NCBI RefSeq assembly: GCF_910592395.1
Contig: NC_088309.1
Location: 6,760,501 to 6,824,500, forward strand
DNA: 64,000 nucleotides
Direction of reading: 5' to 3'
Origin: Lineus longissimus
Lineage: Eukaryota; Nemertea; Pilidiophora; Heteronemertea; Lineidae
This document shows, in pieces, positions 4,263-59,420 of this stretch. A program made the position numbers and the translations under genes. How positions within the stretch are numbered: the first letter of the stretch is position 1; every line of letters starts with the position of its first letter. The notes beneath the pieces are model-generated. The model worked only from the letters and a program-made list of their open reading frames with translations, searched no databases and had not been told where the DNA came from.

Positions 4263-21426
<17,164 letters not shown>

Positions 21427-22759
21427 ATAATCTACTTGGCGGTTTCGAAAAGTTTCACTTGTGCAGCATAAATATAACAACAGACTGAGATCAGTGTGAA
21501 CTTTGCCATCGAGAATTATCGATTATGAAATCAAAATTTGTCAATATTTGTTTCAAAGTATTGTTGAAGATCTGTGATGAATTGCCACGTCATCAGCATC
21601 CTTTGACTTACACCAAGATGTTTGATATGAGATAATGTGTCGCCCGTTAAAGTATCAAATCTAAAGCTTTCACTCAGATATTTATTAATGCGGCACATTC
21701 ACATGTGGAAAGGATTCATCCACAATTGGTTTTGACAAAAGTGCTGTTGAATTACAACAGACTGACAGTCTATTTTGATAATGTAGTCATACTGTTTTTC
21801 ACCTGTCCAGCTTCCTACATATGTATACATACAGTCATTGTATGACTATAAAATCCAATACTATGTTGATTTGTGATTATTTGTTTCATTGCAGTCCAAT
21901 AGAAACTCATTTGTTTTATCTGTGATATCTAGAAATCCATTCGATACTTTGTATAAATGAATATGCCGTCCAAAATTGGCTGCTCTCCTTATTTTCCTCA
22001 ACTCGGCTCTAATGTTTGATCAAAGTTCTGAATGTACGAATTACAAATTCTAATCCCCTCATCCGTCCTTGACATGTCAAAGATTTATTGACTGAAAATA
22101 ATGAACCGTCCAAATAATTCATGACCACGTTCTGTTTCTTTGAACTTTAATACTACCCCGCATAGTTTGTAGAAAGAGACTTTATGAATTACTGTACTTG
22201 TTTGTTACTTTATATTTATCAGTAAATGTTTTATGTACAAAAGCAAATATATCTTGTGTTGGTTTTGTTTTTAAAACTCTCTGGAGGAGGGACATTTATC
22301 CATGATGCAAATCCTGTGGAATTAAAGGATACTTTCTGGTATAGGAAATGTATTCTCTTGAAAGATTTTTGAAACCAGTGGACAGTCTTTTTGTCGTCTT
22401 TCCCTCGATCCCATCCAGATGACAAAACAGACCTGTCTGACATCGGCATTGATCTGGATTAGTTGCGACTCTGTTGTACGAGTCGAACTGTGGTCTTATC
22501 TCTGCATAATAGTGACAGGCTATGGTTAATTCCTGAAGTTCAGAGAAGTTGCTGAGTCTACATGTGGTACATGACATCCTTTGTTTTGACCTTCATCGGA
22601 GAGTATACCACAATGAGGTCCTAACTGGTCTTGCCAGTGCAATTTCGAAGAAAGGAATGGCTATGTAAGATAGATAGTGTCGAGCAGCACTATTATATAG
22701 TTGGTGGTGTACTTACTACTTTTCTTGGTAAGTCCTCTTCTTGCCTGGAGGGCACATAA
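21427..22759. other. DNAI1 3' UTR and intergenic DNA
   Basis: AT-rich sequence after the DNAI1 stop. An ATTAAA near 22321 could serve as a weak poly(A) signal, but no clear AATAAA was seen. No gene is recognised in the interval. Confidence 0.45.
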
Positions 22760-24330
22760 GGCTCCATTACCAGTTTCCAACATGTTGGGTAGGCAGCCTG
22801 TCTCTGGACGTTTCCCCATGTCAGACCAAGCTACTTCATCTCAGGCTCCATTACCAGTTTCCAACGTGTTGGGTTGGCAGCCTGTCTGGATGTTTCCCCA
22901 AGTCGGACCATTTTTAGCTACTTCATCTCAGGCTCCATTACCAGTTTCCAACATGTTGGGTTGGCAGCCTGTCTGGATGTTTCCCCATGTCAGACCAAGC
23001 TACTTCATCTCAGGCTCCATTATCAGTTTCCAACATGTTGGGTTGGCAGCCTGTCTGGATGTTTCCCCAAGTCGGACCATTTTTAGCTACTTCATCTCAG
23101 GCTCCATTACCAGTTTCCAACATGTTGGGTTGGCAGCCTGTCTGGATGTTTCCCCATGTCAGACCAAGCTACTTCATCTCAGGCTCCATTACCAGTTTCC
23201 AACGTGTTGGGTTGGCAGCCTGTCTGGATGTTTCCCCAAGTCAGACCATTTTTGGCTACTTCATCCCAGGCTCCATTACCAGTTTCCAACATGTTGGGTT
23301 GGCAGCCTGTAACTGGATGTTTCCCCATGTCAGACCAAGCTACTTCATCTCAGGCTCCATTACCAGTTTCCAAAATGTTGGGTAGGCAGCCTGTCTCTGG
23401 ACGTTTCCCCATGTCAGACCAAGCTACTTCATCTCAGGCTCCATTACCAGTTTCCAACGTGTTGGGTTGGCAGCCTGTCTGGATGTTTCCCCAAGTCAGA
23501 CCATTTTTAGCTACTTCATCTCAGGCTCCATTACCAGTTTCCAACATGTTGGGTTGGCAGCCTGTCTGGATGTTTCCCCATGTCAGACCAAGTTACTTCA
23601 TCTCAGGCTCCATTATCAGTTTCCAACATGTTGGGTTGGCAGCCTGTAACTGGATGTTTCCCCATGTCAGACCAAGCTACTTCATCTCAGGCTCCATTAC
23701 CAGTTTCCAACATGTTGGGTTGGCAGCCTGTCTCTGGACGTTTCCCCATGTCGGACCAAGCTACTTCATCGCAGGCTCCATTACCAGTTTCCAGCATGTT
23801 GGGTTGGCAGCCTGTCTCTGGACGTTTCCCCATGTCAGACCAAGCTACTTCATCGCAGGCTCCATTACCAGTTTCCAACATGTTGGGTTGGCAGCCTGTT
23901 CCCTGGATGTTTCCCCATGTCAGACCAAGCTACTTCATCTCAGGCTCCATTATCAGTTTCCAACATGTTGGGTAGGCAACCTGTCTCTGGATGTTTCCCC
24001 ATGTCAGACCAAGCTACTCATCTCTGGCACCATTACCAGTTTCCAACGTGTTGGGTTGCCATGTCAGACCAAGCTACTTCATCCCAGGCTCCATTACCAG
24101 TTTCCAACATGTTGGGTTGGCAGCCTGTTCCCTGGACGTTTCCCCATGTCGGACCAAGCTACTTCATCTCAGGCTACATTACCCGTTTCCAACTTGTTGG
24201 GTTGGCAGCCAGTCTCTGGATGTTTACCCATCTCGGACCAAGCTACTTCATCTCAGGCTCCATTAAAGTTTCCAACATTGGGTTGGCAGCCTGTCTCTGG
24301 ATGTTTCCTCATGTCAGACCAAGCTACATG
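22760..24330. repeat. Minisatellite, 19 units of 82-87 bp
   Basis: Units begin with GGCTCCATTACCAGTTTCCA at 22760, 22844, 22931, 23013, 23100, 23182, 23269, 23353, 23437, 23524, 23606, 23690, 23774, 23858, 23943, about 24024 (degenerate), 24087, 24172 and 24256. Three unit classes exist: about 84 bp (TCTCTGGACG form), 82 bp (TCTGGATG form) and 87 bp (extra TTTTT with 'aagtcggacca'). In the left part 87 and 82 alternate, a higher-order pattern. Long open frames cross the array, but unit lengths not divisible by three move the frame, so I do not call a gene. Confidence 0.92.
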
Positions 24331-26186: not shown

Positions 26187-27710
26187 TTAAGGCTTTTGGT
26201 CATCTGAGAACTTCTTCCGTTTTGGGTCAGGATATTGTGGGTTCTCAATCACACCCTTACCAAATTTCAACTCGAGAAAATCCTTGACATTATTTGGGGA
26301 AGATGCCTGCAGTCCAACAAAAGCAATCTTTGTCAGGGGCTTCAAGTACTTTTCTGGGAATTCACAGTCCTGCTGATGAGATTTCATCCAAGTATTTTTG
26401 GTCATTATTCCATTCTTGGGAAAAAACGGAAAAATGTCTACATGGAGATGATTTGCATCACTAAACTGAACTCGGTAGAAATCACCCTCATGCTGCTTCG
26501 ATTTTTCCCAGACAAAACCATCATCATCAACAATTGACTGAAGTTCACAGTTTTTGAGTAGCGGTAGTTTCGGAATGTCCTCTTGATAAATACCGATATC
26601 AATGTCATAATCCCACGGTATGATATCACCAGAACGAGCAGCTCCCAAAAGACTTCCACCCTCGAGCCAATATCGGACACCAGCATTGTCTAAAATGGTG
26701 AACACGTGCTTAGCGGTTTCTCGAAGGTGTCTAAGACAGCACGGTGGAGTCCAGCGCTCTTCAAAGATGAACTCTGGCATATCGGCATACACCGAACCAA
26801 AACATCTAGTAGTATCCTTGTGACATCCATACCACTCCTCAAGGCCATTGGTCCGAACAACCTTCTTGAAACCAAACCTCTTGTACAGGATACGCAACCT
26901 CTCCTTCTCATATATATTATGCTTCCACTTCCTATGATCATCAGCAAGGTATCCTTCATGACGATAAAATACAACTTTAGCAATCTGTATTTTCCAGTTC
27001 CGCAGAGCACTCTGAATGAAAAATGCCTCTCCGAATGGCCTGGCAAATGGATCAGACAGATTTTTCATAATACTGCTTGGTATCAATAAAACAGAATCCA
27101 CTGCGAGCCCGTCACAACTCCCAGGGTTCAAAGATATAGAATACGTCAGAGTCCACTCCCTAAGGTTTGGCTCAATGGCTAAGAAATCAGAGTCTTTCAA
27201 AGCACTGCCAGCTCCTGCTACTATCAATTGTACAGCATGATTACTCTTCAGCATAACAATCAAGGAGGCTATTGTTTGTGAACTGTCTATCACAGTACCG
27301 TCAGGGACAAACACCACATATTCTGAATCAATGAAATTGAGAGGCTGTAGAGCGGAAAATGGTTTGTCAGGAGCTAATTTAGTAACTACCATTTTCACAT
27401 TTTTGGAATCAATATTTATGGAAGGATATGGAAGATGATCAGCAACTATCAAAATCTTACAATTGGGGAAAAATTTTACAATCACGTCAACAGTCAATTG
27501 CACACTGTTCCCAAAGTCTTCGAATTCGCAAATTACAAATGTAACAGACTCCTCACATAAGTTTTTAACTGCAACGTTTTCCTGAGAGCCCCTCCTCGGG
27601 TGCTCAAGACTGTCAGACTTTTGTCGATGAAACATGAAATACAGAATCAGAATGTTTACCACCACAACGCCACACAGGAAGGACTTCCTTGCAAATTTCG
27701 TGCACCTCAT
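26187..27710 (-). CDS. FKRP: Fukutin-related protein, ribitol-5-phosphate transferase
   Basis: FKRP adds the second ribitol-5-phosphate from CDP-ribitol to the O-mannosyl glycan of alpha-dystroglycan in the Golgi. The gene is a single uninterrupted exon of 507 residues (human 495, also one coding exon). The start is the first ATG, at 27710; the frame is open further upstream but lacks an ATG. A type II signal anchor lies at about residues 11-27 (FLCGVVVVNILILYFMF). The LicD-like catalytic part has YWLEGGSLLGAAR, then the metal-binding WDYDIDIGIY (acidic DYDID at about 367-371), HLHVDIFPFFP and ELKFGKGVIENPQYP near the C-terminus. Cysteines at about 296, 303, 324 and 325 match the zinc-finger loop of human FKRP. 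No break or missing key residue is seen. The gene is divergent from PMF1. Confidence 0.96.
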   Translation of the reverse strand: MRCTKFARKSFLCGVVVVNILILYFMFHRQKSDSLEHPRRGSQENVAVKNLCEESVTFVICEFEDFGNSVQLTVDVIVKFFPNCKILIVADHLPYPSINIDSKNVKMVVTKLAPDKPFSALQPLNFIDSEYVVFVPDGTVIDSSQTIASLIVMLKSNHAVQLIVAGAGSALKDSDFLAIEPNLREWTLTYSISLNPGSCDGLAVDSVLLIPSSIMKNLSDPFARPFGEAFFIQSALRNWKIQIAKVVFYRHEGYLADDHRKWKHNIYEKERLRILYKRFGFKKVVRTNGLEEWYGCHKDTTRCFGSVYADMPEFIFEERWTPPCCLRHLRETAKHVFTILDNAGVRYWLEGGSLLGAARSGDIIPWDYDIDIGIYQEDIPKLPLLKNCELQSIVDDDGFVWEKSKQHEGDFYRVQFSDANHLHVDIFPFFPKNGIMTKNTWMKSHQQDCEFPEKYLKPLTKIAFVGLQASSPNNVKDFLELKFGKGVIENPQYPDPKRKKFSDDQKP

Positions 27711-28371
27711 TGTAATTTTTCGACAAATTCCCAAAAAAGTATGGTAGTCAACTCCCTGATCTTCCGGTAGCAAGACGATCCATCCGCCAATCAGTAATGA
27801 GTAAGCTGCGTAATCATCCTTACTATCATCACTTTGTCATCCTCGCTCATCAGACATCTCTATGATCACCCCAATGACGATGATGATGATGATCGACCCT
27901 CGCACTGCAAGCACTAGAGACTCATTCAGATTCATGAGATAGGTAGCCTACATGTAAAGATGTACTGAAGACATTATGTCAGATAAGGCCAAATATGTAT
28001 TGTCTGATTACCATTGAATCAACAGGTATTCCCATCAATCTGTAGCTCAAAACGTTGCTTTGGTATATTTCCTTTATGTTGCATTTATCGAAGTCAATTA
28101 CTTTGCTCTACAATAGCGACAAATCATAATCTCATAGATGACATGAACTTCCTTGTGTTTACCTCATGGGCGCTGACATATTGAAGGGAGGTCTTATTTT
28201 TATCAGAATAATCCGTAAATTACTTTATTTTGTTTTACCTGTTGACACAAAACTAATACGTTGTTCATATTCAGAAAGAATATTTTGATGCTATGAATAC
28301 GATTTACATCCACAGCAATGTCAATATATGGCTGAAAAATTAGTTTTTCCGATAATTTGTTGTTAAAAGTA
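27711..28371. promoter_or_regulatory. Divergent promoter interval FKRP (-) / PMF1 (+)
   Basis: About 660 bp separates the two start codons. A short ATG/GATGATG repeat lies near 27880-27895. No coding sequence is recognised. A shared promoter is inferred from the head-to-head arrangement only. Confidence 0.45.
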
Positions 28372-30153
28372 ATGCTCCCAGAGTTCGAGAACGAGGCTTA
28401 CACCGGGAAATCCAAAATGGAGGTGGTGGAACAAAATATTGAAAATAATGAACAATATGATGTCGAAAGTGAGGCAAATGACAAATCTTCAGCTTCAAAT
28501 CCAGCTGAAAATGAAAGCGAAGAACCACAAGAAGAAACTAAACGAACAAGACTTCTGAGAGCGGCCTTATCAAAAGTTGTGCAGAAGTATTTATCTTCAA
28601 GCAGGTCTGTAAAAATGCATGCATATTCATTGCATTTGCATACGCCATAGGGGCCTACAAATGCACAGGATGTCCCAAAAAAAGTGCACTTGAATCATCA
28701 GCACAGCAGTCACTTTCAATAAGTCCATCTTTTGGCATCTGGCAAAATTTCAAGGCGACAATTAATTTTGGAGTTTACGTAAAGTGCTCAGCTCAGGATT
28801 CCATAAAATCTTAAAGGGTATCTTTTTAAGTATAAACAAACATTTGTGTGTTCCAGGTTGTCATTGTTTGCAAAAGCATACAAACCAGTGTTCAAGAATA
28901 ATCCAAAGGAGTTGAAGTCTATTGTTGAACAGCTCAATCACTTTATGGAAAAGGATCTCACAGTAAGTCAGCTTTCTGGTATTGTTTCTGTATTGTTAGA
29001 AACATTTACTACCGTTCACGGAATGAGTAAAGTTAAGTAAAATGTATGGAACATATTTATTGTACTGCATAACTTTATCCTAGTTCAAGGTAGTACAACA
29101 TTTAAAAGCACATCTCTTTTTTTAGTCTAAATCGTTTGTTATATTTTTGGTGGCCTAATCACTTGACATCTTCCTTTGTAATTTTAGTTACTTAACCAAT
29201 ACAACTTACTAATTTTCTTTTTTGTTTTATGACACATTGAATTTGCAGTGCATAAATGGTTGTTTTAATCTCTTTTCAGAGTGAAATAAATAAAATGTTT
29301 GATGAAGAGAATCTTCCTGATATCCTTCGTGAATTCGATAAGATAATTGCTGAAACACCAGACCCACCAAAGAAAAAATGGTAATTCAACTGTTTGCAAA
29401 TGATACGACTTGAAGAAAAGGTCCAAACATACAAGAAGACTTCCAAGGAACTGAAATTCCTGGCTCTTTGTGCGATTGTGGCTGCCTTTGGTTCTCCAGA
29501 AAGGTTTCTGGATAGGCTGGATAATAATGTTTGCGATTGTAAAGCGCTTTGAGACAGTAGATATTACGGTGAAAAGCGCTATATAAGAACTCACTATCAT
29601 TATTATTATTATTATCATTATTATTATTAAGTAAACAAAGACATCCATTTATCTTAGGAGACCTTCTGGCGACCCAGAGAAAGACCTGGCAGCCCACATC
29701 GTCCCTGAATACGAGAATCACGCGTCCAAACTTGAAAAGATCTTGAGTGACATTGTTGAGGAGAACAAACAGCTGACGTCTGCTGTGTTGCAGCGTAGGA
29801 AGTGCCTTCTGGATACCGTGAAGCACATCCAGGTTATCAAAGACGAGATGACGCTGGTAGGATCTTGTTTTGCTTTTAACCCTTTCTGCTTCACTGTTGA
29901 CCTTGACAGCAGAGAAGGCATTGAACAACTACGCAGACCTAGTCTCCATTGGGGAAAGAGGTGGTCAATCAGATGGCACCCAATCGAATGTTTGGCACAA
30001 ATCCGACAAAAATAATAATTTTAAGGTGCGAAAAACTTTGGATATTTACAGTACAGCATAATTTTCAAAGCTTTCCCTGTCCTTGGTGATATTTCTTTAC
30101 CTTCCTTTTGCTCCTCTTTGCAGGTAAGCAATACCATCGACCTTGAGAACTGA
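28372..30153 (+). CDS. PMF1: Polyamine-modulated factor 1 / Nnf1, MIS12 kinetochore complex subunit
   Basis: PMF1 (Nnf1) pairs with MIS12 in the four-subunit complex linking centromeric chromatin to the NDC80 complex. Exons: 28372-28604, 28857-28962, 29280-29380, 29658-29856 and 30124-30153, all in phase; 222 residues (human 205). The best family evidence is the junction of exons 3 and 4, which reads WRPSGDPEKDL, nearly identical to WRPSGIPEKDL in human PMF1. It follows an EENLPDILREFDKII helix and precedes a long coiled coil (HASKLEKILSDIVEENKQL). The N-terminal ~60 residues are acidic and low-complexity, as expected for a variable tail. An alternative start at 28417 (AAAATGG, stronger Kozak context) would give 207 residues. 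The last exon of only nine codons is the least certain part. Confidence 0.85.
29484..29636. repeat. SINE-like 3' tail with (ATT)n, in PMF1 intron
   Basis: 'TTGTAAAGCGCTTTGAGAC' is followed by 'GCGCTATATAAGAACTCACTATC' and an (ATT)n run. Tails of this GCGCTATATAAG type terminate many invertebrate retroposons. The 5' part of the element is not delimited. Confidence 0.5.
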
Positions 30154-34300: not shown

Positions 34301-37300
34301 TAACTTCATGCCCTTTAAAACGCATTTGTAAGTTTTTTTGTCACCTTTAAACATCTGACAGATCCATATGAAAGGCGTATCATTGCCTTAGACTTACTGG
34401 AACTGTATATTTGACGTCGTGAATTTCAGAGAAAATCGAGTGCTCCATGCCTTCCTGTCTCGAGTAGTTGACACATTTACTTGGATAGGGATGCTGAAGC
34501 CGCACCAACTCAACCTGAAAAGTAGAGTAATATTGTCAGGCTTGTCTTCCAAGATAAGGCAGCAGAAAATTTGTCTGCCATGATATTTTCTACTCACCCG
34601 CCGCAGCCCAATAGAAGTCAGTGTGCCAGGTTGAGCAAATATTCCATTGTCTTCGGGGAAGGGCATGATATTCTGAGTCCCAATATTCACTCGTACCCCC
34701 GCTGCCTCCACCAGCTCTGGGACATACTCATGCTGCTCTATGAAGAGCTCCAGAGCTAGACCTGAAACAGTTTGAACATCATATGAATTTGGTTTAATTT
34801 GAAGGTGAAGTTGACCAGTAATCTTTATTTTTTTCTACACTCAAATGGTTTAAAGGGAGACCATGGGCAGGAGCGAGAGGGGGTATAATTAGTTCTTATA
34901 TTTTAAAAGCTCCTTGCATTCATGCTGCGCTTTCCCTAACAGTGCAGGACTCAGCTAGGATTTGGAATGCATGTGATGCTTCCCAAGTAACCTGCAAATG
35001 AGGTACTGGAAACGCTGAGCCCCAGAGTGGCAATTGTGTGGGCGCTGTTATATGATACACTGATTTCCAATTTGCAATTTCGTGAAAATGTTGGAGCAAA
35101 TCCAACAAAACTCATATCAATAGTTCTCACCGTCCGCATCACCCATCCCCCTTTGAGGGTCTGTTAATCAATACGCACTATGCAGAGAAAAGTACCAAGG
35201 GTGGTACATCTACTCTAACATCATAGCTAAACAAATATATATCAACATTGCCATTTCCATAATTTTTCATTATCTATTTTCAGGTGCGTCTTTGTTTGGC
35301 ACAAAATTATTCATCTCGTTGCTTAGATACAAAGTAAGGGTCCCCACTGAATCTGCCTAGTCTGCAATAACCATTTTAGTAAAGGAAACAAATGGAGCAA
35401 TGGGCGTTGCATTAGTGATCATATCTATTGCTTTTTCCCATAAAAACAATAAACAATTCTGTCATGTTAATAATTGGCCTGGTGATTTGGTGGTATTCAT
35501 GCTAATGAAATTGATGTCACGCCTGAATGATGTAAAACTGTCTATTGAACACTGATGCGGATATCAATCATCAAATATTCTATACCATCATGCCAAAATG
35601 AATAATGATTAATACCAACTGGATAGATGACACACTAATGGGACAGATTCATTCTTGTGTGCATATAATGCATGCTGGTGTGCAGTGCTTAAAGACCTAT
35701 GCCATTCATTAAAGATTTGAAATTTGTAATTGAATTTGACAATTTCTAATTCGCTAAAGATGCACTGAATATAAATTTAAACATTGCCGGTGTGTAGACA
35801 GATGTACAAATGCTAGGTATGCCAAGTTTCAGCAGAGTTGCATGCAGGATAACTGTACTTACCGCATTGTGTATAACTGCATTTCTATTTTCCTGACACA
35901 CAATTAAATACAAACAGCATACCCCTTTAATGTTTATTGAAATCTGGTTTTCTAGGTACACGCAATATCTAGGTGGTGGAGAATGTTCAAATGAATAAGT
36001 TTTACTGTTCTTTACATTCAGATTCATTTGACTATAATTATAGGGTACAGGGTTGTGGGGCGGCCATTTTAGACTCTGGTGGCCATCTTAGATTTGAGGC
36101 AAATTCCAGGGTGGCCTCAAAGCAGGTTAAGACCACTTAGAAAACCTTGATTGGATAAAAGCCAATTTTCTACCTTGGCTGTTAATGTGAATGTTATTTA
36201 AAACATGCCCAATGATTCACTAAAATTTCTTTGATTTATTGAAGAAGAGATTTCAGCAATAAGGCCCACGTATGCACAAAGACAAAATGGGAATGGGTTG
36301 ACTCAATAAATTCATGCAGAAGAGGATATCTCGCACTTGTAAAATCTTGCAGATTAAAAAAAAGAGGGCAAGGGACATATCAGGTTTCTCATTCTTGATT
36401 TCTTCTATAAACTGACCGTATTTTGAGCCTTTGCGGTAAACCTTTTTGATCTTGGTGCCATTCCGACCCCAATTATACACAAAACAGTTGCCATGAAATG
36501 GGTTAGAAACGACTTGCCATCTAAGAAAAAGGAGAGCAGATTGCGTCAGCGTCCAGTAGGACAATATGCGAAGAATAGAAGCGACGGAAAGACTACGAAG
36601 CGAAGCGAAAGAAAAATGCAGCTTTCAATGGAAACCCTGTACCCTGCTTCACTCAGGTGATCATCACTTAATGTTGACACATCGCATATTTTCTTGGGTC
36701 AGTTCACCCGGGATTCAGCAAAAGTTCCCAAATAATTTCTCTGGTGACAAGTAAATGAAGGGGTCAACAGGTATTCAACATACAAACTTTTTTGATAAAC
36801 AGAAATTTGACAGGTGGAAAAAACTGTTGGCTAAGAATTTGACCCCAAATTCGTGGAAACCCCCGAGTACAAGGTTAACATTGACCGTTGCATAAAAAGT
36901 TGGAAGTGATATTCAGGTAACTTTGATGGAAGGGTGTTGAGTTTTATCGTCAGCACTGAGCCTTTCACTACATCCTCCAAAAAAACCAATGGACAAATGG
37001 TGCAACTTGCACTGACCTTATTCCAAGCATATTTTGCAGATACACTGCAAATACACTGCAATTTTGATATAATTTTCAAGATCGGGTTGCTGCCTTCCAC
37101 CGAAGTTCCACTTTAAGCAAGCCATGCGCAAGAAAGATAATTTGCCCTAATCAATAGCCCATTCAAGGCAGAAGCCAACAGCCACAATGGTAAATGAATA
37201 AGTTTGTGACCACATTATCTATCATTTAGTATCTGCTCAAATACTGTTTAAAATAATCTTTGCTCCTAATTTAATGCATTCCGTTTTTGTTTTCCATTTA

Positions 37301-40300
37301 AAAAACTAGTTTGAATGCCCTTTCCAAATTTGACCGAACAAGGAATTAAGCATTTGTTTTGCTCACTGCTGATCAAGCCGCAAACCTTTCTTTGCCTCAA
37401 CAATAAAGTTCCCTTTGCCAAATATTAAAAGTTAAGTTTATATTCTTTCAGTTAAGTTTTTGAATGCATAACCAGGTCAGTTTACAAATTACATTGTAAA
37501 TGTGTGAAAATAACTATGGAAACACCAATAATAACGAGATTCTGCACAATATTACAGAATGAAATGAATTTGAAGCTGTACAGTTCCAAAACTTGAAGAA
37601 TATTGTATACTGTATATGAACTATACTACATGTATTGTAAACCAATACTCTGGTGTAAAAGTATCAAGCATTGCTACAGAGTTAAGTAAGTTTACGTCTT
37701 AAGGTGATACTTTATATATGTGCCAAAATCAAAAAGCTGAACCTACTCATGTGCTTATTTCAATTTGAAGTCACTAACCGTATCTATCGCCCTCACGTAC
37801 AGCTTCCATTACTTTTATGTTATTCCAACCCGAGTTAAATATGAAACAATTTCCATACAGCGGACTATTAATCACTTTGAAATCCCTGACAAAGATGAGA
37901 AGAAGTGATTTTCTTGAAGGTATTTGATTTGAGAGAAGGTTAATGCTAGTGGAACCTCGGTTTCCAGAGGGAATTTTTAATATCGTTTTAACCTGTATAA
38001 TGATTAGATATGCAGGTTTTGAAAAAGTCTTGCATTTATATCATTTGCCTATATCATCAACCGAACAAAATCATCATATCATCGAGATACCGTAAACTGC
38101 GCCAAGTTTTTGCCGGCATTTTATTTTTTCTTAGAATTTGGAAATAATCAAGAGAGCCAGCTAGGTCACTGAAAAACAGCTGAATAAAAAAAGTACAAGT
38201 AAAAATATTGTAAAGGCCTTCACCCTTTGGGGTTGTTTGTTGTATGATTGGTAGCCTCAATATCAATACCAAGTCCAGTGCTTGGGAAATGATGCGAAAA
38301 ATCACTGCCAAAGCAACTTATGTGGGTCTAAAAGGTAAAAGAACCAAAGAAGATTGTTTTGCCAGAGCATATACAGTTAAAGGTAGATTGTCCAAGGTCA
38401 GAGAGAAACCAACTCACCATGGAACACACCCTCGCCATGGGCTTTTCTCACCATACCACCATCCCAGCCCGAATTGTATTTAGAAAAATTTCCAAAAATT
38501 TGGCTGGTTACCACTTTGAAGTGTATCGTGAAGAGAATAATGGAAGTTTTGTTTACCAAGCAGCTTGCCTTGATGCTGCTGTCTTTTAGAATGGCTTTAG
38601 ATAATTGTTTTGCCAGAAGTCGTGTGGCTAAGATTCCGAGGGTATCCATGGTAAACTGTCCCAGAAGTAAAGGAAACCTACTCACTGTGGAATATGCCCT
38701 CTCCGTGCGCTTTTGCAACCCTACTGCCATTCCAGCCTGAGTTATATACGTAACAGTTTCCAAAAACTGGATTGTTTACTATTTTGAAATGTCTGGTAAA
38801 GAGAATGTCGAATGCATCCCATCAGTTTTGCAATTGCAAGCTAATGTCATTTTTGGAATCACTTATATGGTACAGGGGAGTCACTTTCAGCATTATCATG
38901 CTGCATTTGGTGATAGCAATTATAACATTTAGACACAGAAAGAGTTTGGAGGCATAAAACTGATCTGATGGTCATCCAAAATCCTTGGCTGGGCATGAGA
39001 TATTTGAGTGAAGGAGATTATATATATAACGAGTCTTGTATAGCGCAGTATCCGATCCATTAGGATCGCTCAAAGCGCTGCATCACTGCTCATGAAGGCT
39101 TCAGAAAAGATTTGGTAACGTTGATGGATGAATCCATGGAATAAACAATTGTTTATTCAATTTCATGACAGAATGAAAGATTGTTTATTCAATTTCATGA
39201 CGGAGTGAATGTTTTTCTTTTCATTTTAATGACAGAATATGATTGTTTCTCCAAATTCTTAACATGAAGAACGTTATGATCAATTTCATCGAAAACCGAA
39301 GTTCCACCATAAAGAAGGGCACATTTAGTAAAGGTTTGATATGAAAGTCACCAGCGAAAACATGTATGCAAGCTGAGGGATGATTACAAAACACCACGTA
39401 AAAAAATGTTTTGGTAAAATATTTCATATCAAGAGAAAGGCATTTGACGACTCTTCACTGAAGACAATGATCTGTCAGAGGTGAAAAGCCGCTTTTTTAG
39501 CCTTAACTCAAGATATGGCACTGACCGTACATGTGTCCCGCCCGTTTTGATTTTGTAATGTTTTTCGTGTCCCAGCCGGAGTTAAATGTGAAGCAATTGC
39601 CATATAGTGGATTACTCGTGAATTTGAAATCGCTGATAATAAAAAACATCATTTTAAAAACCCAGTTTTGGATCAGTGACGCACAATATTCAAAAGCAAA
39701 AAAAGTGATTTTTCTCACCATTAGAACAATGTTTGTTTCTCGAATTCTATTGCTATAACCTGCGATTTAAATTGCATGCAACGATCCCATGATGGTTCAA
39801 TTGCGATGCTTATCGCAAGTCGCAGCGATGAGCCAATCAATTTTAAACGCAACGAGTACTGTTTTTTTGCAGACAAGAGATCGTTTTGTTGCACTTAGCA
39901 GCGATTAAATCGCAGGAATTACGTGCAATTTAATTTTTTAAATCACTTGTTCGCATGCTGTTTATTGAAAGGTTAAGAACTTGAGGCATTGTATATCCAT
40001 CACATGAACCATTCAGTGTATGTAAAGGGGAGTTTATTTGAAAATTTATGTTTCACATATCATTCCCAAAACAAGACTATATACATATAAATAGAAGAGT
40101 GTAGGGGCCTAGAAATGCCCTCATGTCAATAACATATCAGTTAGAAAATTATAAAAGCATAATAATGATAAAAGAGTAAACTTTAGAACGCATAGATTGG
40201 TGAAAAGAGCCCTTTCAGGTCTGTAGCCTTTCCCGCCTTCAAAGCCAACATGCAGTTATTACTGTCCACTGCCAAATTTGTGTGCCTCTCTAAATGTTTT

Positions 40301-43300
40301 AGTATATGATTTAAAGAAATTTCAAAAAAAATTTAAAATTTCATTTTGGTGGATTGCACATTCTTTCAAATTTCCAAATCAAAAAAATATCTTTTGGTGA
40401 TTTTTATTTTTGAAAATCTAGGATATAAACGCCAGCAAAAATTAGGCAGTTTACAGTTCAATTTAGAAAAAGATGAAGCCAAAGGACAGTCACTGCAATC
40501 ACCAATAATTCTTGTCGCAGCTACCTGCGATGACCACAGCAAGCGATTATTGTCACATGTGATTTAAATTGAAGGTAACAGTGATTTTAATCGCTTGTGG
40601 GGCCCAACACTTAATCAGTCCTCAAAGGGCTGTATCAGAGGTGCACTTTGCTAACAGAGAAAGGAATCAAAAAAATAAAATATTCAACCAAATTAACCAC
40701 TTACCATGGATATGTCCCTCTTTGTGGGACTTGAATACGGTGGAATTGTGCCAACCAGAGTTGAATATGAAACAGTTTCCATAGAGTGGGACATTTATCA
40801 GAGTGAAGTCGCTGTTGGTGTAAAAGTAATGGCTTCAATATCGAGGTCACTTTGAAGGCGCAGGAAAGGCTGTCATTTTTGCAGGGCATCCAACTCAGTG
40901 GCTTTTGCATTTAAAAAAATCATGTTTATCCAATTATCAGGTTCAATAGAATCAAATAGTATCAGCAACCACATTTTTAAAAGGACAACTTGAACATGAG
41001 ATATGCTGGTTTTTTATACAAATAGGCCTGCCTGAAATTCATATGCTATGTCCAAATCTGCCTTGCAACAATGGCGATAATCATTATTAGATATCGACAT
41101 CAGTGTAATACTGCAAGTGGCGGCACATGGTGGCAAGCAGGGGCATTATCTTCCTGGACACGTAAATCCAACGCCAAAGTTGTCCCTTTAACAATAAAAA
41201 CAGCAAAAATCATATTTTTGCTTTGGATAAAACAAAAGTTTTGTGAATCAGAGCAAAGAGTTGGCAGTTTACAGGACATGATGTAGTTGGTTTTGTCCAT
41301 CTGTTCAGTGTGGATAATGATTGATGTATATACTCAGCCTCAAGTCCATGCACTCTCACAATGCGATTGAAAATCTTGCTTGGAATTACTTCAATTCAGT
41401 GAACCAATTCATATTTCTGACGTACAATACTGTATTTTTATTCACAAACATTATCACAAAGTTTTACTATACCCACTGTCATTACAATAAGGTAAGGTAA
41501 AGTGGGGAAAAGTTAGGCCTTGGGGGAAGTTACCCTCCTATTGTGCCATATTCACAAATAGAGTATGATGGCAGGGCCTATTTTTCCCCCAGTTTCCCTT
41601 GCAAAACATATACATGAATCAGGGCTTTCAAACATATATCAGGGATTTACACTCACCCTGTATGACACTCATGACCAGCAAAGTGACATCCCAGCAACAT
41701 GACATTCAAGTCGTGCCCCATGGAGATGCGATGACTGGAGTCAATACGGGCCCACACCTTGCTGAAATTCATCCAGAATGCGTGTCGAGTCTTGGCGTCT
41801 GCGTGCTACAGGAAATAAACAACCTTGATTTTAGGATAACTTTTTGCATCGCCATTTCCTCTGATCTTGACCATCAAGGTTAAAACATCTTATCAATTAG
41901 TCAGGAGGCATTCCTCTTTCCATTTTGATACACAAGATTCTGTTTTGTTTTCGCCGAATAAATTTTATTTCAAATAGCTATAATTTTATTTCATTTCATT
42001 TCATTGGTTCTAAAGGGAGAGCACAGGCATTGACAAACCATGCTATAAAGCCAGCGAGATATGGTTAGCTTTGGAAACGCCGGGTATAACGAGTATAGAT
42101 GTAATAAAAACTGGGAAACTTATGTTACTGACAATAATTCTTGTCAACCGGACATTCCGAAAAAGGAAATGCGATTTACCAGTTTTACTGGTATTTCCCT
42201 GGAGAATCGATATCTATTAGGGTATATCCTTCATCATACCATCCTTCAATAGCGGCAAACTTCTAAGTATGTGCGTGACATATATCATTAGACGAAAGTG
42301 TGGCGGAGTTGTCGCCAATTACGGTTAAGTCAATAAATACAAACGGTGACCGCTACCGGAGACCTACTTGAATGTAAATTAGAAATTATTTTCGTCATAT
42401 CGTCCACATTTGAAGTACATGTAACTGATGTACCATAAACTGTAGTGTAGAATCGCAATACTGTATCACTGATACGTTGATGATGGTAGACATCTCAAGA
42501 ACGTGTCAGTTAAATTCCGATTGTATTGAGATACCAGTTCAAAGTCACTGCGAAACCTCATCACAAATCCTCACAAAACCTGCAAGTTTTGCACTGATAT
42601 ATGTATATGCAGAATCATACTTACTGGTGTGTCATTTGTCAAGCCAGCAGAGTATTTTAGAAGATTAACAAGGTCTGGCCCACCGTCCGAAATGTTAGAT
42701 TTTCTGGAAATAAGAATGGAGGGAACATGTATGGAGAAGAAGGAACGGAAAGGGTGAGTATCCATCCTAAGATTCAGGGGTTTTCCACTCCTACGTCATG
42801 TACAACGAGAAGCGGAGTGCGTTGAAAACCACCCGTTATACGAGGATGGTGGTATCAGTTTTACCAAAGAAACAAGAGGGGGACCTGGATGGAGAAGGAG
42901 CAGGGTTTTGTAGAGAATAATTTATTGGAAACACAATATCAGAATGATGGTCTTCAATTCCTCTGCGGTTATGGAAGGATTGTGCTACCTTCCCAAATGT
43001 GGCAGCCTTCATTTGAGTTTGGTGTTCATAGCAGCAGAGAACATAGGTCGTCGGGGAGAGGTACTAAGGTGCATTTGAGACTTGCATGACAGCTATAGGG
43101 GTGTTTATTGATCTTTAATATAATCTTTAATAAGCAAATGATTATATTATATGGTATTTTAAACAGCTTAACATGCAATTCAAAAGACCAGAGTTTATCA
43201 AAACAGTATACCATGAATCAGAGGTCACACAGCTGCCAGAACAATATCACAATGCTCTCGTTTAGTTCATTTGGTCCGAGAGGCCCAACGGATATTATGA

Positions 43301-45154
43301 ATGTTTAGAGCATGCCCGTGCCGCAGCTGATGCGACTTTGTCGAAGCGGCCCGGACAATCTTCTCATTGTTGATAGATGATGGCATTGTTTTGGACAGAA
43401 TTGTGATGCCTTTGACCACTGACATCATCAGCATTGTGTCTTCAGCATCTGTGCCACGACCAAATCGTTCGTTGTATGATAATAGGCAGCTTACGAAGAA
43501 TTATACGAACGACAAAGTACGAAGTATATGCAAATGTTAATTGCTTCTAAACACAATAAAACTTTGGACGGTGAGTTTTATGTGGAAGACAACCAGTCTC
43601 ATTATTGGCGCCTTCCTCTGCATTTTATGTTTCACCCATCCTCAAAAATCTCGAGTCAGTCGTATCTCCTCCCCTCGCACACGTTAGCCTGAGCTTCAGG
43701 ATATTGTGTTTCACCCAACACCGAAAGTTCGATCGATAAGATGTTTATTACTTTTTTGCTGCTCTTAAGGGTTGCAAAACCCGCCAATGATAATAAAGAA
43801 TATATAATAATACAGAATAAGCCAGGTGCAACTTAATTAATACATCTGAAAAATGTGTTCACGCCCCAACCAATCGGAATACTAACAGCATTTCTCCCTT
43901 GTTTTTGCAAGCATGCCATTAGTTGCGCGAATGTAAGATTGGGGCTTATGAGGTAATTTCCGATTCCCGGACCTTCCCGAGGCATGGTACAAGTCGATAG
44001 CAGTCTAAAGCCAGGATGACGGCACCCAATCGCCCGATTGTGTCATGTGTGGAGGGAATAGATTTCCGGTGACACGGAACGCACCAGTCCGATCTTATGT
44101 GAGTGATGAAGTTGAGGGGTGTAATAGAGGAGTGCATTGCACCCCAGTAAAATTCGTTTGAGAAAAGATTCGGGTGAGTCCATTGTGACCGGTAAGCGCT
44201 ATATTTGATTGGACAAGTCTGCGAGAGATCATCAATATCGCAGAGTCTTTTTATAGTTAGCATTATATAAATCATTACAAATACTGTAGAAAGTCGTTTC
44301 GTAACAAACGTTTGCTTTTGGCTTTCGTTCGTCTAAGACAGGATAAAGCCGACAAAGCAAAACGTTTCTTGAAGGACCGACCGCCGCATGAACTCTGGGT
44401 GCTCCCAGCTTCAGCCTGAATGCTTGAATGTTGCCATACCGACTGTATTATTATTAGGCAAAGTTCCTTACCTGATTATGTTGGCATTACATATAGTTAC
44501 CGCCGGAAAATCAACCGTGCTCGCTGTGGTGTAATCGATACTGATGGCTACTTCGTATTTGAGAAACCGCTGCAGGAATTTTCCCCCTTGCCAGACAAAG
44601 ATGGCTGAAAAAGGAGCATTTCATAATCATAATAATGGCTAATGTTGCAGGCAGGAGTGGTCCGTACACTTCGGACATGGCCAGAACGCCACGCCAGAAT
44701 GCCACGCCAGAATGCCACGCCAGTATGCCATGCCAGAATGTCACGCCAGTATGCCACGCGCGCCAGTATGCCATGCCAGAATGCCCCGATGGAGGTGATG
44801 TGGTAACGTCAGCGTACGCCGAAAGTTGCAATGTGAAGTGGGGGAAAGCTAACCCTTGCCACTTTCCACTTGAGCATTGTGACTATAATACAGTGGAAGA
44901 GCTAGCCCCCCCCCCTCCCCATTATTATCTTTCTTTGACAAAGAGGGTATCATATTTATCACGATTCTGTCGGATGATCAGTTTACTTAAAAACTAAAAC
45001 ATCATTTACCTCCGCATATCAGGAAGCAGACTGTCCAGAAAACCCTCCTAAGTGGCGTACTCGCGCTCCCGGCGTGTGGTATTCCATGACAGGAACTACG
45101 GACCGCCCAATCCTTTATCAAAGACCTGTAGGTGACTTCTTCTTGTTCAACCAT
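31361..45154 (-). CDS. DEG/ENaC family cation channel with alternative exon 5
   Basis: Trimeric amiloride-sensitive-type sodium channel subunit of the plasma membrane. Exons on the minus strand: 45154-45010, 44604-44472, 42703-42625, 41805-41657, one of six exon-5 copies (40811-36417), 34761-34598, 34514-34398, 34112-33962, 33432-33357, 32943-32886, 32350-32268, 32023-31948 and 31693-31361. With a 107 nt exon 5 the total is 1671 nt, 556 residues. Marks in order: cytosolic HG motif (SSCHGIPHAG), TM1, VDFPAVTICNAN, LLGCHFAGHEC, YGNCF-x-FNSGW, ELFIEQHEYVP, MPFPEDNG, TSIGLRR, the cysteine-rich block (ACEKTCYQR, CHCADPFYP, CDCPQSCY), FEWPAVRY, and TM2 with IGGTVGLWIGLSILAVFEGIELL including the G-x-S filter (GLS) and pore glutamate. 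Splice phases agree at every junction. Ligand class (acid, peptide, mechanical) cannot be told. The start ATG at 45154 is the least certain point. Confidence 0.93.
34762..36416. other. Intron between exon 5A and exon 6 of the channel gene
   Basis: Noncoding sequence; I searched it for further exon-5 copies by the reverse complement of the GNCF codons and found none. Confidence 0.55.
36417..36520 (-). other. Alternative exon 5A of the DEG/ENaC channel
   Basis: A 104 nt copy, nearest exon 6 and most diverged: acceptor TTCTTAG, donor GTCAGT. It encodes NPFHGNCFVYNWGRNG; NSGW of the other copies has become NWGR and one codon is missing before the conserved cysteine. The frame is open and splice phases match the other copies. 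Confidence 0.8.
37779..37885 (-). other. Alternative exon 5B of the DEG/ENaC channel
   Basis: A 107 nt copy with acceptor TTTGTCAG and donor GTTAGT. Encodes DFKVINSPLYGNCFIFNSGW followed by a variable linker ending in EGDRYG. All conserved residues are present. Confidence 0.85.
38418..38524 (-). pseudogene. Dead exon 5C of the DEG/ENaC channel
   Basis: A 107 nt copy closely related to 5D (shared V-x-KAHGEG-x-FH linker). The acceptor dinucleotide is AT instead of AG, and the conserved cysteine of GNC is replaced (GNFSKYNSGW). The donor GTGAGT remains. With both splice site and disulfide residue lost, inclusion is unlikely. Confidence 0.8.
38686..38792 (-). other. Alternative exon 5D of the DEG/ENaC channel
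   Basis: A 107 nt copy with acceptor TTACCAG and donor GTGAGT. Encodes HFKIVNNPVFGNCYVYNSGW. It ends in A, so the codon joined with exon 6 is AGT (serine) where the other copies give glycine. Confidence 0.85.
39005..39095. repeat. SINE-like fragment in the exon-5 cluster
   Basis: 'TATATAACGAGTCTTGTATAGCGCAG' with 'CTCAAAGCGCTGCAT' resembles the reversed GCGCTATATA-type retroposon tail. It lies between exon copies 5D and 5E. Short and not delimited. Confidence 0.35.
39139..39240. repeat. 20 bp palindrome and 32 bp tandem repeat between exons 5D and 5E
   Basis: GAATAAACAATTGTTTATTC (39139-39158) is a perfect palindrome. Overlapping it, the unit ATTGTTTATTCAATTTCATG starts at 39148 and again at 39180, with a third degenerate copy near 39212. 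Copies of a pairing sequence inside an alternative-exon cluster could form competing RNA structures (inference). Confidence 0.8.
39526..39632 (-). other. Alternative exon 5E of the DEG/ENaC channel
   Basis: A 107 nt copy with acceptor ATTATCAG and donor GTCAGT. Encodes DFKFTSNPLYGNCFTFNSGW and a linker ending in AGHMYG. Closest to the family consensus YG-x-CYTFNSG. Confidence 0.87.
39759..39916. mobile_element. MITE-like element between exons 5E and 5F
   Basis: A 158 bp segment bounded by the perfect 12 bp inverted repeat CCTGCGATTTAA ... TTAAATCGCAGG. Similar motifs near 40510-40600 and 30930-31105 suggest a family. No coding capacity. Confidence 0.6.
40705..40811 (-). other. Alternative exon 5F of the DEG/ENaC channel
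   Basis: A 107 nt copy nearest exon 4, with acceptor CACCAACAG and strong donor GTAAGT. Encodes DFTLINVPLYGNCFIFNSGW and a histidine-containing linker (KSHKEGHIH). Confidence 0.87.
44681..44788. repeat. 13 bp minisatellite in channel intron 2 / exon 2 upstream
   Basis: About eight units of CCAGAATGCCACG with variants (CCAGTATGCCATG and others), interrupted once by CGCG. It lies in the intron between exons 1 and 2 of the channel gene. Confidence 0.88.
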
Positions 45155-48100
45155 CTCTGCCACGCAAAAATATGCTTGGGATCTTGCAAGGTTCATCTTG
45201 ACATTGTCACTGACGTATGTTCCAAGTAAAGACGAAAACTGGAAGTATAGACGCAGATTCACAACAAATGCAACTGATATGATTACGGTATTGTCCCGTC
45301 CGACCTTCATATAGCCAAACGAAACTTGGGGCAACTATACTTGCCCAAAAAGTACTGAATGGCCTCAACTAGACGTCCATTCTCTTTTGGGCAAGTTCGA
45401 GTTGCCCCCAAGGATTTAAATTCCGATCCCTGTGTGACATCTGTGCCGATGGTTGTTCCCCACGCTTGTGTTTCCATACAACAGACACGACCATTAATTT
45501 CCAACACAAAAAAAGTGATCGATGATTTATCTTTTAGCGTTTCCAAACAATAAGGGTATCTAAACACTCAAAAATGTAAATACTCAAAGTGTCACACCAG
45601 TATTGTAACACTGAAATGGTTACTCCAATGCCACTTAAGTAGAAAATGGGTTCTTGTCCTTCCCAAGACCGATGGAAGATCTGAGGCGGACACAGTGCAG
45701 CAGGATTGCGACGAAATATAGAGTGGTGTCTTTGTTCTTTGCATAACCTCCCACTTGGCTCGATGTTCACAAACTTTATGAAAAACATCTTTTCCCCAGT
45801 ATTGAGAAACTTTACGTCTTAAAAAACAGCCCTCAGGGATGACCATTGACGCCAATCGTTGCTAACCAGGACTCTCAGCACAGTAGCATATAAAAGAGAG
45901 ATTACCATATCATATTAATAATACATTTTCTTACATTTAATGTTATAAAAAAATGGTCCACCAATGACATAATAAGTACCAGGTGTTATGTGTCGTGTTA
46001 CAGTATTGCAGCATCTCGGATTAACCGATTCCGCCAGGAATCACAAATGCAAAACTCGGATGCACCCATGCAGGTGTAGGCTACTACAACTAACCCTGAG
46101 GACAGAAAACGTTGCCCCGAAAATGGACCCCGTTGTGGATACAACACCCTCACAGGTTAAAATAACCAACTCGCGGCAAACATGAGAAATAGTGAGTGTC
46201 CGCGTCCTCAGAAATGGACCTGTGGGGCTGGTGGATCCGCATTCTGATAGGAAGCAATCACGAAGGACGGAAATCCGGTAAAAGTGGAGAAAAGTGCCTG
46301 ACCCTACCAATCCACCTCAAACCACATGAAATCCTTTGGTCAACTTGGTCGTGTCCCCTCACGTCGTGGCCTGGTTTAATCCCATGGTAAAAATATCAGT
46401 AAATGGAATGAACGCAAGGCCCGCATGAAGCGAGTTTCGCGCTGAACGGCTGAACGGCTGGGCATCAGTTGCGATGTCTCCTGCTCCTTCAGCTGTTGTG
46501 ACAGGAAATGAAAAGGATGATCACTGATTCTGGTCTATAATAGTGCCGTTTACACGACACGAAAAAAAAGTCACATCGGATTGATATGGCTCAGACCACC
46601 TGATGAGATGAGACGCGGCCACGTTTCCAATTGGACGTTTCCTTTTCTTCATTGCATTGGTTGATGTAGTCTGCCGTGCAGCGGTGGGATTGGACTGTCC
46701 AGTTGGTCTTCGTCCTTGTTTTAAATTTGACGAAATAACTTCGTCGCAAAAAGAGATACATCCCCAAAAATGTTCTGGACCTATTATGATTAATCCATAT
46801 TACTCATTCAGGAGACAAAGCCTACCGTATTTCCGTGCTCCATTGATGTGTTCTATATACCCATAACCACAGAAGATGACCACTATCCATTTCAGATTGA
46901 CTGCAACTGCATCCGCGTTGTTCCTGTTCGGGCAGACGTCGGTCCCTTATTAACTTAAATGTATGGGTGGGAAAGTGTTTTCCAATACCATGAATACGCA
47001 CGCACGCCCAAACTGATACTCGATTCATGAATTATCCAATAGACTGTGCGATGTTGGAGCAATGTTGGAATGAAGAGTTGTATATCATTATTTAATATCT
47101 GACCCGAAGCTATTTCTCAACTATTAAGGGATGAACCTTTCAGATAAAGAGGTTTAGCATGAGTGGATGTGAGATATACCGGCTTCCCGTCTTGTTTCCG
47201 ACAGCCAGGTTTCGCAACCCTTACGAAGTATGTAAATGTATACTAGGCCTACTTCATCGAAGACTTTTTTGGAAATTTCCTCACGTTCCTCGTACAACTA
47301 AGTACTGGTATAAAAGACGATTTACTAGTGTCGTTTAACTGAATTCGCGCACGGCTTGATGACATCATAGACGTTCGTATACTACGTTGTTCGCCAGGGT
47401 TGCGAAACCTGCTTATTACCAAGTTGTTTTAATCTTCAAACAAACCCGTTTAGACTACTTACAACATGCTGTAACTCAGCCAGGAGCTGTCACAACCCAA
47501 AGACAGAGTATTTGAAATGCCAAATATTACGGTTAGGCCTATTGGTAGCCGCAACGGCTCCTGACCATTTAACAGTCGTGAAAATATAGGCTGACTAGGG
47601 GCCTACGTCCGCACTGTGTATTTTCCCGAGTGGATGAATTGAGGGCAGGTTTGTGGCTGGGGGGAAGGGGGGGTCGGTTGGCGCTGGAGCAGGAGTTAAG
47701 ACTGTATAGACAGATAGAGGTGGTGAAGACGACTTCGATTTGGAGCGAAACGACTGGGGGCGAAAAGATCAGGGAGCGAAACGACCAGATAGGCCTGCCC
47801 TACGTAGAAATGTACAGTGTACATTACTACATGCATTATGATGTTTGTGTACATTTGTGATTTGATCTGTAAAGTCTTAGAGAGGAAGATAAGATTTTTT
47901 TTGTAAAATGACAAATAAATCTAAAAGTATGCACATTTAGTGACATATTTTCGGTTTTGTTAATGTACCAGATGACTGTGCTTCTATTTATGTTTTTGTT
48001 TTGGGTGGATATGTTGAGAATATGTCGATATTCTCCATTTGACATGTTAATGTTTTATACTTTTCGAATTCAGTTAGGGGCCTAGGCCTAGTTAAATTCT

Positions 48101-58358: not shown

Positions 58359-59420
58359 TTCCCAGTCAGAATGGACAATTGCAACACGTGCGTTGTTCTT
58401 CTCCCGAATTTTCCATACCATTTGATTGAACCTTTAATCATCTAAACTCCGTGTGCTATTCGTCTACAACTCCGTGTGCTATTCTGCTGATACGAACGTT
58501 CTATATTCGTCATATTTTTGTCTCGTGCGAACTTTTCTACTTCGTGCAATTTTCCGGATTTGTTTACATTTGTGTGCACATTTACCTATGCCTCCAATGC
58601 ATTGACCGTACTGTACATTGACTGTACATTGTGGATCGATAATCAGATATAATCGTGAAATCCCTAGATTTATCTTTGTAAGGTGACTCAACAGAGCCGT
58701 CAACACCTCTGTCCTGCCTACATCGTCTATCTTTGGATACCTGTCGTCAGTGTCGATGTTCAACCATTCAATCAGCCCTGCAGTAAGTCGTGATGTGATG
58801 TGATTGTGAAGACGAAGTGATTCTAAAAACCCCCCTGTGTCTGTGATGCCCTAACTAGTTTCAACTGAACTCTTTAAGTGACTTTAAGTGACTTTGAACT
58901 GTGAACTTTTCATTCTCCGGATTATCTAAAGACATTTGCCATTGGTCCGACTTCGTACTCGTAATATTAACTGTATTTAACAATCACAACATTCATCCAT
59001 TGAGACATGTTTTAAAATGTTTTAATCTAAACTCTTTCTAATCCATTCCCCTTTCAGGACGCCTGACAACATCTGACTGACCCATGGCATTCCCCATTGC
59101 ATTGCAGATCACTATTAACTTTTGCTTCCCAGATATTATGATTTTTGCTTCCACATAAATAATCCGCTTGATTCCAGTACCCCATGTAGCTTTCAACCTA
59201 TATCAACAACTCAATTTATCTAACATAGTGTAGACAGTTAGCTTGCAGTAAATATTATTCCAGTAGTTTGCAGTAAAATAGACCAGTAAATATTATTCCA
59301 GTAGTTTGCAGTAAAATAGTAAGACCCTTCACTCGTACAGGTACACGTCATTGTACACTGACCCCATCTCTACATAGCTAGCTAGATTTAGATTACATTA
59401 TTATTATTATATAGCTCACA
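58359..59420. other. Untranslated leader of the LTR element
   Basis: About 1.06 kb without a recognised frame. It contains a short duplication of ACTCCGTGTGCTATTC near 58446-58485 and a 38 bp tandem duplication at 59246-59319 (AGTAAATATTATTCCAGTAG core). Confidence 0.6.

Follow-up and report, generated by a model that had tools for sequence, protein, structure and literature searches.

Diversity in the DEG/ENaC superfamily of channels is usually explained by gene families and by the mixing of subunits. ASIC1 (ASIC1a/1b) and ASIC2 (ASIC2a/2b) come in two variants each, with alternative 5' parts that encode the N-terminus and the first transmembrane segment (TM1); in insects, alternative exons swap a piece of the ligand-gated channels RDL, GluCl and nicotinic alpha6, which belong to the pentameric Cys-loop family and have a fold unrelated to that of DEG/ENaC. 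The splice variants ASIC1a/ASIC1b and ASIC2a/ASIC2b are named in the accessible part of PMC5405051, and the accessible part of PMC4019635 reports that splicing and editing of RDL influence the potency of GABA. Clusters of mutually exclusive exons occur in Dscam, Mhc, MRP and srp (PMC6071210, accessible part). Here we analyse a stretch of 64,000 nucleotides from the nemertean Lineus longissimus (contig NC_088309.1, positions 6,760,501 to 6,824,500; hereafter the window), the minus strand of which carries a DEG/ENaC channel gene with six tandem copies of one internal exon. The copies probably make up a mutually exclusive exon cluster, the cassettes of which would tune gating or desensitization.

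Spliced with one of the copies, 5c, the gene model is identical over 590/590 amino acids to a RefSeq protein, 'amiloride-sensitive sodium channel subunit beta-like isoform X3 [Lineus longissimus]' (P0001 in what follows), the best among the 36 proteins returned by a protein search; because the two are equal over their whole length, we regard the gene model as right. The cluster consists of the following elements.

40705..40811, minus strand: copy 5a, 107 nt, intact, tail WHNSTVFKSHKEGHIHG
39526..39632, minus strand: copy 5b, 107 nt, intact, tail WDTKNITKSKRAGHMYG
38686..38792, minus strand: copy 5c, 107 nt, intact, present in NCBI isoform X3
38418..38524, minus strand: copy 5d, 107 nt, degenerate, with no acceptor AG and the invariant Cys changed to Phe; unlisted by the family hidden Markov model (HMM) at E up to 1
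37779..37885, minus strand: copy 5e, 107 nt, intact, without an N-glycosylation sequon
36417..36520, minus strand: copy 5f, 104 nt, intact, with the longest branch among the copies and a tail net charge of +7
34762..36416, minus strand: last cluster intron, containing 7 of the 13 GCATG words of the cluster introns (see below)

An earlier reading of this DNA, made from the letters alone (the sequence-only reading), had put six homologous copies at six coordinates, each of which turns out to be the exact 3' end of a minus-strand copy. The lengths that it gave, 107 nt for five copies and 104 nt for one (5f), hold, as does the common phase: every copy is entered after two codon bases and is left with two needed. 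Five copies have AG acceptors and GT donors, in agreement with the earlier count of intact splice sites, and the sixth (38524-38418) reads ...cttcacgat up to its acceptor boundary. The introns between the copies are 161-1258 nt long, and the outer cluster introns are 845 and 1655 nt. Compared two by two (15 pairs), the copies have from 11/36 to 23/37 amino acids in common. A family HMM, made from 32 segments taken from other proteins of the family, with P0001 and the copies excluded, was run over both strands of the window at a database size of 100,000; the five intact copies come out with E-values of 6.3e-11 to 0.033, the sole other listed row has -1.7 bits, and 5d is unlisted. The match of the five copies is not chance. 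Cys216 of P0001, invariant in 33/33 aligned family members, is retained in 5a, 5b, 5c, 5e and 5f. Alternative AGs that keep the phase of 5d give exons of 161, 158, 146 or 86 nt, all open; by eye no good pyrimidine tract precedes these sites, and the Cys is missing in any case.

All 64 subsets of the six copies were joined in silico between the constant exons. Inclusion of a single copy leaves the frame open to the natural stop in 6/6 cases, with a product of 590 residues (589 for 5f), and none of the 58 remaining subsets, with no copy or with several, is open, so that skipping all copies or including two does break the frame, as the sequence-only reading had it. The architecture of mutually exclusive splicing that it had put forward is likewise what we find: only one exon is duplicated in tandem, in one phase, and the frame is kept by single inclusion alone. 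Annotated isoform X3 holds exactly one copy, 5c. Since introns of 161-1258 nt lie between the copies, combinations are not sterically excluded, and the copies might be ordinary cassette exons combined in various numbers; yet 0/57 multi-copy subsets are open, including all 15 four-copy sets. Exon stacking is rejected on this ground, and we give such combinations very little credence.

When all copies are skipped, and likewise when any two intact copies are joined (ten pairs), the frame meets a stop 694-821 nt upstream of the last junction (11 cases measured), and nonsense-mediated decay is expected for stops so far before the last junction. The same stops would suit a regulated off-switch, in which skipping or double inclusion yields frameshifted, decayed transcripts that set channel abundance, with the identity of the cassette mattering little. 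For such a switch, however, one exon would do, and several copies with a conserved first part would be unneeded; we regard it as improbable. In the mutually exclusive cluster that we favour, the splicing machinery would take one copy per transcript, nonsense-mediated decay would clear skips and multiple inclusions, and cell-specific factors would choose the copy. The pore and the finger would stay constant whichever cassette is used, and the swapped segment, from beta3 through the beta5-beta6 palm loop, would tune gating or desensitization, along with interface charge and glycosylation.

Divergence between the copies bears on whether they are still in use. Over the ten pairs of intact copies the mean proportions of synonymous (pS) and nonsynonymous (pN) differences are 0.795 and 0.334; the part before the tail has mean pN 0.241 and pS 0.761, and the 17-residue tail pN 0.441 and pS 0.842. 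The copies are old, with constraint on the strand region and more freedom in the tail. All six form one clade (support 98/94) in a tree of 46 segments, namely 32 other family proteins, the six copies and eight rows from other Lineus loci (two of them identical), with 42 usable columns and a program warning of many unresolved forks and some long branches. A block of 157 nt that extends into the introns is 71% identical between 5c and 5d. It could be that only one or two copies are used (5c by annotation) and that the rest are remnants heading for loss like 5d, which is without acceptor and Cys; 5f, whose branch is the longest among the copies (1.15) and whose HMM match is the weakest, would fit this description, and 5c is the sole copy seen in an annotated protein. 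Nevertheless, in five copies the splice sites, the phase, the open frame and the invariant Cys are all kept, and a profile built without these copies finds them; synonymous differences near saturation beside a conserved first part are also not what neutral decay would produce. The protein cluster of P0001 also has 5 member sequences, as many as there are intact copies; P0001 itself carries 5c, and the other four members would carry 5a, 5b, 5e and 5f. The name 'X3', in which we take the X numbering to mark computed annotation, would imply at least three annotated isoforms of the channel gene. Taken as a whole, decaying duplicates seem unlikely to account for the cluster.

Lineus is rich in DEG/ENaC loci (at least 104 ASC matches, tallied exon by exon), and the copies might be imagined as parts of separate tandem channel genes. 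Against this, no other exon of the gene recurs in the window: tblastn with the whole protein turns up no duplicate of any constant exon there (other rows have E 0.86 or worse), and the copies lie inside one gene whose full model equals the RefSeq protein. Separate genes with flanking exons of their own are rejected because the constant exons are unrepeated in the window and the model equals P0001, and we assign this explanation a negligible probability. As a separate observation on the family, nine genome-wide DEG/ENaC matches (L001-L009) span nearly the full profile in one stop-free frame of 563-677 aa, with E 3.8e-60 to 1.5e-45; they stand beside many exon-broken matches and are seemingly an intronless family branch in Lineus longissimus.

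We searched the 391 Mb genome with a degenerate DNA pattern covering the five intact copies. It gives 20 matches, 5 of which are these copies (reversed control, 3), and no second cluster appears genome-wide, as no two of the other 15 matches lie within 10 kb on one strand; a stricter pattern gives 12 matches, three of them at the cluster. Among 41 other stretches (the 30 best ASC matches and two further sets of 5 and 6; 3-10 kb each and some overlapping, hence a partial control), 22 contain a single segment that reaches 8 bits, 19 contain none and 0 contain two. Because neither the genome pattern nor the test of stretches brings out a second cluster, the present one looks lineage-specific and single in the genome. 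Among six relatives of P0001 that were read, those from hemichordates and brachiopods carry names without an isoform number, which on annotation alone hints at one isoform each.

The remainder of the gene is made up of constant exons, located as follows.

46826..46843, minus strand: coding exon 1 (MEHGNT), placed by motif; the joins give P0001 exactly
45010..45238, minus strand: coding exon 2 (N-terminus and start of TM1), from tblastn, 100% to P0001, and the spliced model
44472..44604, minus strand: coding exon 3 (remainder of TM1 and start of the extracellular part), from tblastn and the spliced model
42625..42703, minus strand: coding exon 4, from splice sites and tblastn
41657..41805, minus strand: upstream constant exon, coding exon 5 (exon 4 of the sequence-only reading), from tblastn
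34598..34761, minus strand: downstream constant exon, coding exon 7 (exon 6 of the sequence-only reading), from tblastn
34514-34398, 34112-33962, 33432-33357, 32943-32886, 32350-32268, 32023-31948 and 31693-31361, minus strand: constant exons to the stop codon, from tblastn and the spliced model

The two exons that flank the cluster (41805-41657 and 34761-34598) had thus been given correct coordinates and the wrong numbers: three more coding exons lie upstream, and 42703-42625 is the fourth, which makes the flanking pair coding exons 5 and 7 in place of 4 and 6. The channel matches Pfam ASC (PF00858) with E 2.3e-62, at profile positions 138-454 of 455, on a 463-aa model from coding exon 4 onward. 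Comparison of a 228-residue piece with the sequences in PDB returns ENaC beta (E 1.7e-32), ASIC1 (3.6e-20), Aplysia FaNaC (1.6e-17) and FaNaC1 (1.5e-8); since ENaC beta is nearer, an FMRFamide-gated channel (FaNaC) is ruled out as the closest relative by sequence. Invariant columns in an alignment that took in 33 of the 36 proteins found include the extracellular cysteines C193, C216, C307 and C407 together with G497 and S499 (P0001 numbering), the last two of which we take to be the GxS filter in the second transmembrane segment (TM2). The AlphaFold model (predicted local distance difference test, pLDDT, 78; predicted template modelling score, pTM, 0.71) matches ASIC1a in Foldseek with E 8.8e-34 and has the ASIC/ENaC fold.

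The cassette begins with a strand which we take to be beta3. Between NSG (NWG in 5f) and the next Leu there are 17 residues, here as in ASIC1. By residue count alone, cassette positions 31, 32 and 37 fall on K211, G212 and G217 of ASIC1a, with L218 opening the downstream constant exon (7rnn_D numbering). This sharpens the earlier structural reading, in which the segment led from the palm towards the beta-ball: the cassette ends at G217 of ASIC1a and covers K211/G212 and the beta5-beta6 loop. In ASIC1a, K211 faces the thumb of the adjacent subunit and is a pH sensor (accessible part of PMC12658276), and mutants of G212 have altered pH dependence, kinetics and decay, the residues being sited in the beta5-beta6 palm loop (accessible part of PMC7198790). 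In FaNaC1 this loop flips upon ligand binding, with L211 displaced by 20 A, and the FMRFamide pocket is elsewhere, in the finger helices and the beta6-beta7 loop; whether the movement has a role in activation or desensitization is left open in the accessible part of PMC11026163. Because the FaNaC1 loop moves and the peptide pocket lies elsewhere, what the cassette would tune, by analogy, is coupling or desensitization and not the recognition of the peptide.

With positions counted by hand, the residue at 31 is K in 5a, G in 5c and 5d, and R in the other three copies. The net charge of the tail ranges from 0 to +7 across the copies; an N-glycosylation sequon is present in the tail of 5a, 5b, 5c and 5f and absent from that of 5e, and the 5a tail has four histidines. 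One gene might in this way make five subunits that differ only in a thumb-facing loop segment, with a choice by cell type, mixed trimers, and splicing alone grading gating, desensitization and sensitivity to ligand or protons; we advance this broader proposal tentatively and regard it as rather doubtful.

Several observations weigh against the reading of the locus as a working cluster with functionally distinct cassettes. Annotated use is seen for 5c alone among the copies, and isoform X3 is itself a computed annotation; a search with a 179-residue middle fragment for other isoforms or transcript pieces gave no match, and the cluster is known here from one species only. The AlphaFold model has strands at 205-210 and 214-219 and the next one at 240, and in the tail it predicts a two-residue bridge only, two clear strands not being evident. 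ENaC beta, the nearest by sequence, is one residue shorter in the loop (a one-residue gap in the alignment), and the function of the ASIC loop is for this reason carried over by analogy. Even K211R alters the pH dependence of ASIC1a (accessible part of PMC12658276), so that K cannot be equated with the R of 5b, 5e and 5f. There is no support for positive selection in the tail, because mean pN stays under pS there, with pS near saturation. The search for a means of choosing a copy adds to these points. Docking/selector pairing, with both outer introns scanned against all others, gave a best sum of -149.1, and 5/12 shuffles were lower (shuffle range -143.7 to -160.5; power is low with one species); complementary 8-mers shared between introns, CAGTTTAC in two and GTAAACTG in three, were matched by 67/200 shuffles. 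The donors of 5b, 5e and 5f also pair slightly more weakly with U1 (-4.7 to -4.9 kcal/mol) than those of most constant exons (-5.1 kcal/mol).

Among candidate mechanisms, docking/selector control of the Dscam type is set aside, pairing being no better than shuffles in both tests. Short-intron steric exclusion and U2/U12 conflict are both ruled out and do not apply, because the cluster introns are 161-1655 nt long and every intact copy has U2-type ends, GT-AG with a gtnagt donor. The 5a donor pairs better with U1 (-8.6 kcal/mol). GCATG, one of eight motifs tried and presumably an RBFOX-type word, occurs 13 times on the transcribed strand of the cluster introns (34762-41656), where the remainder of the window would predict 5.5 (Poisson p 0.0046), and 6 times on the opposite strand. 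The density is high in the other introns of the gene too, 10 in 6,922 nt against 13 in 6,256 nt in the cluster introns, which makes possible RBFOX-type control of the cluster a weak lead only.

Other features of the window are listed below.

16843-17184, plus strand: WD40-repeat frame, E 2.2e-7, over the curated cut-off, with a neighbour at 15774-16277 under the cut-off; possibly, by eye only, a dynein intermediate chain
22759-24327: tandem array with an 84-bp unit in about 15 copies; long open frames on the plus strand
26187-27836, minus strand: one open frame encoding a Fukutin-related protein (FKRP_N E 4.6e-59, LicD E 4.6e-16), some 3.5 kb beyond the stop codon of the channel gene
29635-30015, plus strand: frame matching Nnf1, a kinetochore protein (E 1.6e-6); on the opposite strand to the channel gene and downstream of it
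59415-60602, plus strand: 395-aa frame, by eye retroelement gag-like with a CCHC knuckle; no Pfam match

With a tandem cluster of internal exons, splicing would join gene families and subunit mixing as a source of DEG/ENaC diversity. If several natural loops are carried by an otherwise constant channel body, the role of the beta5-beta6 loop becomes directly testable; if the broader proposal is true, the cassettes would be loop swaps supplied by nature at the gating interface of this superfamily. The sequence-only reading knew of no description of such a cluster in this family, and literature searches, with thin coverage of subscription journals, likewise found none among the records listed. 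In the accessible parts of papers on the family, the words splic, exon and isoform are absent from PMC3583452 and occur in one reference only in PMC10148893; the accessible part of PMC9949801, which searched the Lineus longissimus transcriptome for ASICs, leaves splice variants unmentioned (0 occurrences of 'splice'). The architecture is thus known as a kind and, as far as the searches reach, new for the DEG/ENaC family.

With the clusters of Dscam, Mhc, MRP and srp, as presented in the accessible part of PMC6071210, the Lineus locus shares tandem homologous exons of similar length and one phase, a frame that breaks unless one exon is used, and an origin by exon duplication, here with the intron carried along for 5c/5d. 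It differs from them in its host gene, a DEG/ENaC channel, and in that no docking/selector pairing was found. In clusters of more than three copies decay cannot police every combination (PMC6071210, accessible part); unlike in those, the four-copy sums that restore the frame in Lineus still contain stops, so that decay could police every combination. The ASIC1a/1b and ASIC2a/2b variants belong to the same family, and in them, too, alternative RNA processing alters part of the extracellular domain, whereas Lineus has a tandem array of one internal exon. As in insect RDL, GluCl and alpha6, alternative exons would here replace a piece of a channel.

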